DNA of 39,690 bases from an uncultured Alphaproteobacteria bacterium (lineage in GTDB: Bacteria > Pseudomonadota > Alphaproteobacteria > HIMB59 > GCA-002718135): contig CACHBB010000008.1 in assembly GCA_902577945.1 (NCBI GenBank), forward strand, positions 1 through 39,690. The letters run 5' to 3'. Position numbers and translations under genes: made by a program. This document shows, piece by piece, positions 33,917 to 36,213 of the stretch. Below the pieces are notes generated by a model. It made no database searches and was not told where the DNA came from. It saw only the letters and a list, made by a program, of their open reading frames with translations. The stretch's first letter is position 1. Each line of letters starts with the position of its first letter.

Positions 33917-33935
33917 AAATTTGGGCCCCAAATTT
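33917..33935. repeat. Perfect 9-bp inverted repeat at the topA start
   Basis: On the topA strand this reads AAATTTGGGGCCCAAATTT: two perfect 9-bp arms around a single central base, with its last base touching the ATG. The GGGGCCC core stands out in such AT-rich DNA. It could be an operator, or an mRNA hairpin or dimer site that hides the GGGG stretch, the only Shine-Dalgarno-like sequence near the start. I infer a role in topA control; no known regulator is assigned. Confidence 0.7.
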
Positions 33936-33981
33936 CAGTTTAAATATAATTCGTCAAGAAAATTTGAAAAAACGTATGTTT

Positions 33982-34587
33982 TTACTTGAATAATTTAATT
34001 TTACTTTCAGTTTTGTTAATGAGTCTTTTAATGTTTTCTGCATGTTTGATATAAATAATCAAAGTTAAATAAATGAAGAAAACTAGAATATAAAAATTAA
34101 AATTAATAAAAATAAAATAAGCTGGAGTTACTAAAATTCCAATTAAAGATCCAAGAGAAGAGTATTTAGTCACATAAGCAGTAATCATCCATACCAATAA
34201 AAATAAAAGTGCAATGTAAGGATTAAGACCAAACAAGAAGCCAATGTATGTTGCCACACCTTTCCCACCTTTAAACTTTAGCCAAACAGGGAAGATATGA
34301 CCTAATATTGCAAAGTGACATAGAAGTATTTTATTCAATAAAGAAATATCTTGAAAATACATTTGTAAAATTAAGAATGGAAGAAAACCTTTAAAAATAT
34401 CAAAACAAAGAACAAAGAATGCTAAAAATTTATTTCCTGTTCTTAAAACATTTGTTGCACCTACATTTCCAGAGCCAATATTTCTAATATCTCCAAAGCC
34501 AAATAATTTTGTAAAAATTAATGCAAAGGGAAATGAACCTATAATATAAAAAATTACAATTAATGATAAATTAGCTACTAAAGTCAT
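33982..34587 (-). CDS. plsY: Glycerol-3-phosphate acyltransferase PlsY
   Basis: Uses acyl phosphate (from PlsX) to acylate glycerol 3-phosphate at the membrane, the first step of phospholipid synthesis. It has 201 residues with about five to six hydrophobic helices. The three family motifs are visible: GSFPFALIFTKLFG with SGNVGATNVLR (motif 1), GHIFPVWLKFKGGKGVAT (motif 2), and a third near residues 140-150. Its start overlaps pyrB by 17 nt. pyrC, often found between pyrB and plsY in alphaproteobacteria, is absent. Confidence 0.96.
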   Translation of the reverse strand: MTLVANLSLIVIFYIIGSFPFALIFTKLFGFGDIRNIGSGNVGATNVLRTGNKFLAFFVLCFDIFKGFLPFLILQMYFQDISLLNKILLCHFAILGHIFPVWLKFKGGKGVATYIGFLFGLNPYIALLFLLVWMITAYVTKYSSLGSLIGILVTPAYFIFINFNFYILVFFIYLTLIIYIKHAENIKRLINKTESKIKLFK

Positions 34588-35716
34588 CTCTATTTTTTAT
34601 AATTAAGTCTAAGCATGCCATTCGAACTGCAACGCCCATAGCAACTTGTTCTTGTATTAAGCTCCTTGTGACATCATCGGCAAGTTTTGAGTCTATTTCT
34701 ACACCTCGGTTCATTGGACCTGGATGCATAACGAAAGCATTTTTTTTTGCATATTTAAGTTTATTGTAATCTAATCCATACTTTTTAAAATAAGTCTTTT
34801 GATTTGGCATAATTTTCCCAACTATTCTCTCTTTTTGAATACGAAGCATCATAACAATATCACAATTTTGTAATCCTATTTTCATTTCCGTATAAATATT
34901 CACAGGAAGTTTTTTTAAACTTTTTGGTAACCACTCCTTAGGACCAATAACATTAATTTTCGCACCTAACTTTGAGAGTATGATAATGTTTGATCTAGCA
35001 ACACGACTATGTAAAATATCCCCGCATATAGCAATTTTTAATTTTGAAAAATTTTCAAATTTATTTTTTATAGTAAGTGCATCTAATAAAGCTTGTGTAG
35101 GGTGCTCATGACTTCCATCACCGGCATTGATTACAGAAGCATCAACTGATTCAGAAATTTTTTTACTAATTCCTTCCTCTGGATGTCTCACAATTAAAAC
35201 ATCAGGATTCATTGAATTAATAGTAGTCATAGTATCGAGTAATGTTTCACCTTTATTAATAGAACTATTTTTTACAACTACATTAATTAGATCTGCTCCT
35301 AACCTCTTAGCGGCAACTTCAAAGCTTGTTCTTGTTCTTGTTGAATCTTCAAAGAAAAGATTAAATATTGTTCTTCCCTCTAGCACGTTTATTTTTTTAA
35401 TTTTTCTTTTATTAAAAGATATATATTTTTTAGATTCGTCTAAGATGTGCTCAATTTCTTTCTTAGTTAAATCAGCTGTTTCTAATAAATGAATTTTTTT
35501 AAAAATATTTTTTGTTCGTTTTAATTTTATATTTGTTTTTGAAGAAATTGATGAATAATATTTTAAAGCTATATTTTCTGCATCTTTAAGAATCTTTGAA
35601 CCTGTAGATGATCTGATCGCTTTAATTTTTGGCAATTTTATTTTCATTTGCCAATATTTTGAATTTTCTCTTTTATATAATTTTATATGTCCCGATTTTA
35701 GGTATTTTGAATTCAT
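34571..35716 (-). CDS. pyrB: Aspartate carbamoyltransferase with recombinase-like N-terminal extension
   Basis: Catalyses the committed step of pyrimidine synthesis. It has 381 residues; the PyrB core, from about residue 68, has all active-site motifs: EDSTRTRTSFEVAAKRLGAD, GDGSHEHPTQALLD and HPGPMNRGVEI. Residues 1-67 are extra. They contain IKLYKRENSKYWQMKIKLPK, then IRSSTGSKILKDAENIA, a pattern typical of the arm-type DNA-binding segment at the start of phage-type tyrosine recombinases. Between Met24 and the core there is no ATG, GTG or TTG in frame, so the extension, or most of it, must be translated with PyrB. pyrI is not present. It overlaps plsY by 17 nt and follows ruvX by 38 nt. Confidence 0.93.
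   Translation of the reverse strand: MNSKYLKSGHIKLYKRENSKYWQMKIKLPKIKAIRSSTGSKILKDAENIALKYYSSISSKTNIKLKRTKNIFKKIHLLETADLTKKEIEHILDESKKYISFNKRKIKKINVLEGRTIFNLFFEDSTRTRTSFEVAAKRLGADLINVVVKNSSINKGETLLDTMTTINSMNPDVLIVRHPEEGISKKISESVDASVINAGDGSHEHPTQALLDALTIKNKFENFSKLKIAICGDILHSRVARSNIIILSKLGAKINVIGPKEWLPKSLKKLPVNIYTEMKIGLQNCDIVMMLRIQKERIVGKIMPNQKTYFKKYGLDYNKLKYAKKNAFVMHPGPMNRGVEIDSKLADDVTRSLIQEQVAMGVAVRMACLDLIIKNRDDFSS
35516..35716 (-). other. Integrase arm-domain-like segment fused to pyrB
   Basis: About 67 codons at the 5' end of pyrB. The layout YKR-x3-S-x-YWQ-x-KIKLP, then R-x-STG-x8-A-x3-A matches what I know of N-terminal segments of tyrosine recombinases, where YW binds and the STG strand is followed by a helix rich in Ala. 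No catalytic recombinase residues (R-H-R-Y) follow, so it would be a remnant or a captured domain. The call rests on pattern recognition, not a search. Confidence 0.6.
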
Positions 35717-35746
35717 ATGTGTTAATAATGTGTAAGTATGTGTAAA
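35717..35746 (+). repeat. Three ATGTGTWA direct repeats upstream of pyrB
   Basis: ATGTGTTA (35717), ATGTGTAA (35728) and ATGTGTAA (35738) occur at 11- and 10-bp steps, one helical turn apart. They fill the 38-bp gap between pyrB and ruvX, ending at the pyrB ATG. Helical phasing suggests a protein-binding site such as an operator or recombinase arm sites. Confidence 0.6.
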
Positions 35747-35754
35747 CTAATTTA

Positions 35755-36213
35755 TTAATAATTTCTATATCTATCCAAATATCCTTGTAAAATATAAGCA
35801 GCCGACTGTTGATCAAGTTTACTTTTTATCTTTGTTTTACTTAAATCTGCTTTTCTCATTTCTTTAAAAATTACATCTGATGAAAATCTTTCATCCCAAA
35901 GAACTGTGGGTTTTTTAAAAAAGGCTTGAAGATTAATATTAAAATCTCTTACTAACTGACTTTGTTTGTTTTCACTATTATCAAGGCTAATTGGTAGACC
36001 AAGAATAAATCCACCAATTTCATACTCATTCAAAATATCTTTCATGTTGATTAAATCTTTGTTAGTTCCTTTTCTTTGGATAATTGAAAGGGGTGTAGCG
36101 ATTATTTTTGATCTATCACTCACTGCAACACCAATCGTTTTAGTTCCTAGGTCTAGACCTACAAGTATTTGTGATGTATTAAGACCATCGATTAAATTAT
36201 TTTGGTCGTTCAT
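35755..36213 (-). CDS. ruvX: RuvX/YqgF-family Holliday-junction resolvase-like nuclease
   Basis: An RNase H-fold protein; the family is linked to processing of the 5' end of pre-16S rRNA and proposed to resolve Holliday junctions. It has 152 residues. Motifs are LVGLDLGTKTIGVAVSD with the first catalytic Asp, FILGLPISLDNSENKQ, LWDERFSS with a catalytic Glu, and DQQSAAYILQGYLD with the last Asp. It is divergent from gatC, with only 17 bp between their start codons. Confidence 0.95.
   Translation of the reverse strand: MNDQNNLIDGLNTSQILVGLDLGTKTIGVAVSDRSKIIATPLSIIQRKGTNKDLINMKDILNEYEIGGFILGLPISLDNSENKQSQLVRDFNINLQAFFKKPTVLWDERFSSDVIFKEMRKADLSKTKIKSKLDQQSAAYILQGYLDRYRNY

Follow-up and report, generated by a model that had tools for sequence, protein, structure and literature searches.

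Why should an aspartate carbamoyltransferase (ATCase), the product of pyrB, begin with a segment that resembles the arm-binding part of a tyrosine recombinase, and does that segment act on the gene that encodes it? The question is raised by the window, the whole stretch of 39,690 nucleotides analysed here, which lies in contig C8 of a source genome of 1.2 Mb that is 82% complete. The close relatives of this genome are genomes of uncultured marine Alphaproteobacteria, which, by inference, fits a place in the AEGEAN-169/HIMB59 clade (PMC10308909).

The pyrB reading frame and its conserved extension

The open reading frame at 34571-35716 on the minus strand encodes a PyrB of 381 amino acids that starts at the ATG at 35716 and carries, in frame, about 70 residues ahead of the ATCase core; the Pfam carbamoyl-phosphate domain matches from residue 76. 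Residues 1-56 (35549..35716, minus strand) form an integrase-type arm-binding domain, assigned by homology and predicted to fold as four strands and one helix. In the alignment, residues 57-72 (35501..35548, minus strand) are a variable linker with codon insertions and deletions between species, and residues 73-381 together with the stop codon (34571..35500, minus strand) make up the ATCase core, recognised by Pfam and by its motifs. Behind the arm domain, Pfam found only carbamoyltransferase domains and no core-binding or catalytic domain of a recombinase. The enzyme domain is intact, in that its Pfam match lies above the cut-off and that the STRTR, HPTQ, HSRVARS and LRIQ motifs of the core, catalytic ones among them, are invariant in 25 sequences; enzymatic activity is inferred from this. 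The list of open reading frames places a ruvX/yqgF-like gene upstream on the same strand at 35755..36213, which we take to be ruvX/yqgF, and its stop codon lies 38 bp ahead of the pyrB ATG. On the other side of pyrB (33932-34587), a plsY-like gene alone separates it from topA, both names being what we take these genes to be. In alphaproteobacteria pyrC and dprA often sit between pyrB and topA, and both are missing there.

The preliminary description had held that the N-terminal 67 residues are foreign to the ATCase family, which is borne out by the in-frame extension of some 70 residues, and that no usual start codon stands between Met24 and the core, such that the fusion must be translated to make PyrB. 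The latter holds only in part, for most sequences of the family and not for all. The window has a single ATG, GTG or TTG between codon 24 and the core, namely the TTG of codon 28, and 69 of the 77 distinct coding sequences of the family have no start codon after codon 28. Later ones occur in the remaining 8, in 4 of which the codon is an ATG at position 76.

Searches of related genomes show that the extension is shared by members of one family, here called f1, and is not a local accident. Within the genus, the full-length fusion was found in 23 of 36 genomes, and the start of the extension is visible in four more, three of which are cut by contig ends (G007, G014, G029) and one of which is frameshifted (G027). 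Only the 3' part of pyrB was seen in 2/36 (G011, G012), pyrB was not seen in 7/36, and none of the 36 has a pyrB start without the extension. In G027 (loci L025 and L092) the pyrB frame is broken inside the linker, leaving extension and core in different frames. Across the order, 75 of 150 genomes carry the domain (E<=6.1e-25), all of them in f1 and under the genus labels g1, g3, g5, g6 and g7; no further convincing match was found in these 150 genomes, the next best being in the sister family f2 at E 0.0023.

The extension is under purifying selection in f1. Residues 11-56 had a pooled dN/dS of 0.110 and the linker one of 0.226; within the core the value was 0.094 over residues 73-110 and 0.031 over the remainder, as computed from 77 distinct full-length coding sequences and the 1335 of their 2926 pairs whose synonymous difference in the core was 0.05-0.5. 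Frameshifted L025 and L092, contig-cut L029 and loci whose match starts past residue 6 were excluded from this set. In addition, 15 of 62 domain columns are invariant among 25 sequences. The low dN/dS and invariant columns of the domain show that it is translated and retained as a protein segment, and the higher dN/dS of the linker shows that this part can vary freely.

Homology of the extension to integrase arm-binding domains

The preliminary description had also likened the extension to the arm-binding segment of a tyrosine recombinase. This holds by profile evidence, with which the predicted fold agrees. Scans of the extension as a single sequence against Pfam and PHROG named no integrase, so that a test resting on a single sequence would have rejected the likeness wrongly. 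Nothing useful was returned by a profile search of PDB sequences, by tblastn of the extension against phages, by a scan of viral contigs with the extension, or by searching the window for Rfam families and tRNA genes.

When a profile built from 18 family sequences was run against 385 genomes of the class, 16 rows in 15 genomes were returned at E<=0.01, namely two PyrBs of the genus and 14 other proteins in 13 genomes. The 14 come from alphaproteobacteria of other families, with per-genome E values of 2.5e-7 to 0.0044, and all 11 of their ORFs that were scanned match PHROG integrases; those not scanned were L238, a near copy of L236, and the short L242 (67 aa) and L243 (141 aa). The match lies at the integrase N-terminus, where KVHVYKRENSRYWQ in L235 aligns with HIKLYKRENSKYWQ in PyrB. 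Profile-profile comparison (hhalign) of the PyrB extension with the integrase arms gave a probability of 97.9 and an E value of 3.6e-13, with the caveat that the PyrB profile had itself retrieved most of those integrases. In the reverse direction, an HMM of the integrase arms alone matched only PyrB ORFs among 234 sequences that included all window ORFs of at least 40 aa. Two of the integrases were scanned against the Pfam integrase families and matched only below the cut-offs, while PHROGs matched them strongly; the related integrase L235 gave no match in the phage collection and 25 plasmid records. The PyrB extension is thus homologous to the N-terminal arm-binding domains of tyrosine integrases.

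AlphaFold2 predicts the domain as four strands and a helix, in keeping with the plan of arm-binding domains, a sheet of three or four strands and a C-terminal helix, with a pLDDT of 90.2 in the best of five models (the others ranged from 89.2 to 69.3); the full-length PyrB prediction was poor (pLDDT 50.6) and was not used. In structure comparison, the attP-recognition domain of a P4-like integrase (3rmp_C) scored Z 6.2 and an AP2 domain (6sy0) Z 5.7, with an unrelated protein at Z 6.4. In a viral structure library, integrases were matched with probability 0.99-1.00 at E 0.069 and 0.14, behind a differently named protein at E 0.004, and Foldseek against the PDB gave no match at E<=0.001. The fold predicted by the model agrees with an arm domain, yet the structural matches to integrases are weak and this evidence is weaker than that of sequence.

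Tandem repeats at pyrB and at integrase genes

Immediately 5' of the pyrB ATG lies TTTACACATACTTACACATTATTAACACAT, which holds three direct copies of the unit NACACAT that the preliminary description had missed. Reading towards the gene on the minus strand, ACACAT occurs at 35738..35743 (repeat 1), at 35728..35733 (repeat 2, 10 bp from repeat 1) and at 35717..35722 (repeat 3, 11 bp from repeat 2 and touching the ATG); all three were assigned by sequence and conservation. Close relatives provide 61 distinct upstream sequences; every one of them reads NCACAH at all three places, and the spacers vary. Among deeper loci, L202 and L203 have three copies with 11/11 spacing, and the first repeat is degenerate in L100 and L102. 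A search of 41 genus genomes with the triple pattern returned 30 rows from 28 genomes; 27 of these rows lie directly against the extension, two lie elsewhere and one (G011:C52) is unassigned. The paired pattern gave 50 rows in 26 of the 41 genomes, 46 at pyrB and four elsewhere. Since exact patterns miss variants such as ACACAC, genomes without a row need not lack the repeats. No wider pyrimidine regulon emerged from the two patterns in these 41 genomes. As for another protein that might use the sites, the one tyrosine recombinase found in the genome of the window lacks such an N-terminus (by eye).

The same tandems precede integrase genes that carry the same domain. Of 21 related integrase genes, 15 have [AG]CACA pairs spaced 10-12 bp apart on the coding strand within 250 bp upstream; shuffles predict 0.07, the reverse strand shows none, and the other six genes have no such tandem. 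Several features of this count should be borne in mind: the criterion was fixed after the first 14 loci had been viewed, L236, L238 and L242 are near copies and not independent, L271 was found via the repeat itself, and there is no control set of integrases lacking the arm domain. Six plasmid loci were retrieved once the pattern was known, and four of them have the tandem. At L235 the repeat is present in triplicate, with spacings of 11 and 10 bp, and in L235, L236, L238, L239 and L240 the copies have a tRNA gene on one side and the integrase on the other, the position in which arm-type sites belong.

A protein-blind scan of the 385 genomes for TTACACA-N3-4-TTACACA gave 28 rows in 20 genomes, compared with 11 rows in four genomes for the reversed control pattern. 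Two rows fall at pyrB and nine within about 120 bp upstream of eight arm-domain ORFs; four more fall inside other integrase-like ORFs or at their 3' end, one is an extra copy in G529 and 12 are unexplained. Capture of arm-type sites is the best reading of the pyrB repeats, one that rests on sequence only and has no binding data behind it.

Some further observations concern the sites themselves. The TTACACA tandems in or just past the 3' end of other integrase-like ORFs (L249, L251, L253, L275) are perhaps arm sites of the opposite side, and the second TTACACACCTCTTACACA tandem of G529 (G529:C1:2585780-2585797, L272) adjoins no recognisable integrase. On a viral contig (L283:1250-1500), found later and excluded from the 15/21 count, an arm-domain integrase is accompanied by CACA pairs 11 bp apart that flank a stretch resembling, by eye, the end of a tRNA; the layout resembles the two arms of an attachment site, and ARAGORN called no tRNA. 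Finally, the third strand of the domain reads RATT where the sites are GCACA (L247, L277, L281) and RTST, RIST, RKTT or RTTT where they are ACACA (L235, L237, L239, L240, L241, L271). That third-strand residues and the site base make up a recognition code is possible on these few cases.

Domain and repeats are present together and absent together. The carriers have both, and G067, a genome of genus g4 within f1, has neither, its PyrB lacking the extension and only six bases separating the ruvX stop from the pyrB ATG. Likewise, at 11 loci of the sister family f2 there is no extension, the PyrB frame begins near the core and emerges from the apparent end of ruvX, and no repeats were seen by eye at the junctions. 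The tree nests G067 with four deeper carriers (support 100/99), although a topology that holds all carriers together was not rejected (p-AU 0.138); L109 was included in the first tree and left out of the second owing to its long branch. The tree therefore favours a joint loss of domain and repeats in G067, a possibility that hangs on one genome, and does not exclude that G067 never had the module.

A proposed origin, its rivals and its meaning

We propose that an ancestor of f1 captured the 5' end of an integrase gene, arm-type sites and arm-binding domain together, in front of pyrB. The captured domain would now be the N-terminus of PyrB, and the sites would be the three repeats that reach up to the pyrB start codon at intervals of about one helical turn. 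We hold homology and site capture jointly to be very likely. The preliminary description had left a choice between the scar of a departed element and a captured DNA-binding domain through which PyrB could bind upstream of its own gene. The two are not exclusive, as the origin would be an integrase gene start, whereas the family-wide retention of the domain and the conservation of repeats at the gene start favour a captured module that acts on its own upstream region. The repeats lie inside 35700-35760, which had been named as the stretch that PyrB might bind; binding and control are inferred.

Integrases with sites overlapping their own promoter repress themselves (PMC2951348), and a fused PyrB would therefore inherit the loop: the PyrB arms would bind the repeats, and abundant PyrB would lower its own expression as integrases with such sites do. 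Autoregulation via the repeats is likely in our view, with binding and repression inferred in the absence of binding or expression data. Since the search for a promoter-like site across the repeats came back empty, the level of control, transcription or translation, is undecided. Because the enzyme motifs are intact, PyrB probably combines enzyme and regulator in one protein, as a putative 'trigger enzyme' whose activity and regulation are both inferred. ATCase catalytic chains form trimers, which makes it attractive to set three arms on flexible linkers against three sites one turn apart, though an integrase also has three. In a bolder reading, the trimer would be sensor and repressor of pyrimidine synthesis together, its three arms reading the three repeats, substrate or nucleotide binding to the enzyme would alter the grip of the arms, and the whole integrase circuit, reader domain and sites, would have been domesticated for a metabolic gene. 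We put this bolder reading forward tentatively, leaning slightly against it.

Other explanations must be weighed against autoregulation. The extension may be a translated scar, in which the integrase start replaced that of pyrB and is tolerated as a supply of a start codon, regulating nothing. Most species lack a usual start codon between codon 28 and the core (69/77), such that the extension cannot simply be dropped, and G067 shows that a PyrB free of it is viable. However, a mere start needs neither 15 invariant columns of 62, nor a dN/dS of 0.110, nor non-coding repeats in 61 of 61 sequences, and we consider the scar unlikely. Control at the messenger, with the arms or another factor binding ACACAU repeats by the start codon and governing translation, also seems improbable to us. 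In its favour, the repeats touch the ATG with no promoter-like site over them, and the end of ruvX lies only 38 bp upstream, making co-transcription of pyrB possible. Against it, the related domains belong to integrases with DNA arm sites (PMC8138268), and a spacing of nearly one DNA turn is kept at both pyrB and the integrase genes.

Least probable, and very unlikely in our judgement, is that the extension serves the enzyme through assembly, stability or allostery, for example by replacing PyrI, and that the repeats form a promoter or leader element with no relation to it. PyrI was found in none of 41 genus genomes, most of them incomplete, while a control search found it in seven of 14 named genomes. 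This absence speaks for such a role but may be general, as the search did not cover the sister family. Moreover, domain and repeats co-occur and co-vanish, and integrases that carry this domain have these repeats ahead of their genes as well.

The autoregulation that we favour has partial parallels in known systems. With the arm-binding domains of tyrosine recombinases (PMC8138268), the PyrB domain shares N-terminal sequence homology, a predicted sheet-plus-helix fold and tandem sites about 11 bp apart adjoining the gene; unlike in those proteins, it is fused to an ATCase, and no core-binding or catalytic domain follows. The self-repressed intS of KplE1 (PMC2951348) likewise pairs an arm-domain protein with arm-type sites at its own gene start. 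Its product is an integrase whose repression was measured, whereas PyrB is a metabolic enzyme whose repression is inferred. The trigger enzyme PutA (PMC8249747) similarly joins an enzyme to an added DNA-binding domain with a target at its own gene; PyrB differs in being another enzyme, with an integrase-derived domain and captured sites, and in that its regulation is inferred. In BzdR (PMC3602430), too, a linker connects a DNA-binding domain with an enzyme fold, that of a former shikimate kinase, which has lost its activity, while the PyrB core retains its motifs. AP2-type transcription factors have been proposed to originate from integrase-like domains and are alike in placing a DNA-binding domain of a mobile element in gene control, although the match to 6sy0 (Z 5.7) is not decisive. 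These regulators are eukaryotic, whereas PyrB is an enzyme of bacteria that has retained the original sites next to its gene.

Our non-exhaustive search of the open-licence literature turned up no ATCase fused to a DNA-binding domain, whether from an integrase or of another kind, and no account of pyrimidine control in this ocean lineage. If binding is shown, an aspartate carbamoyltransferase would act as its own regulator in an abundant ocean lineage. It would be a clear case of a single fusion turning an enzyme into a regulator because a mobile element supplied the sites along with the domain that reads them, and bacteria would thereby offer a counterpart to the origin proposed for AP2 transcription factors.
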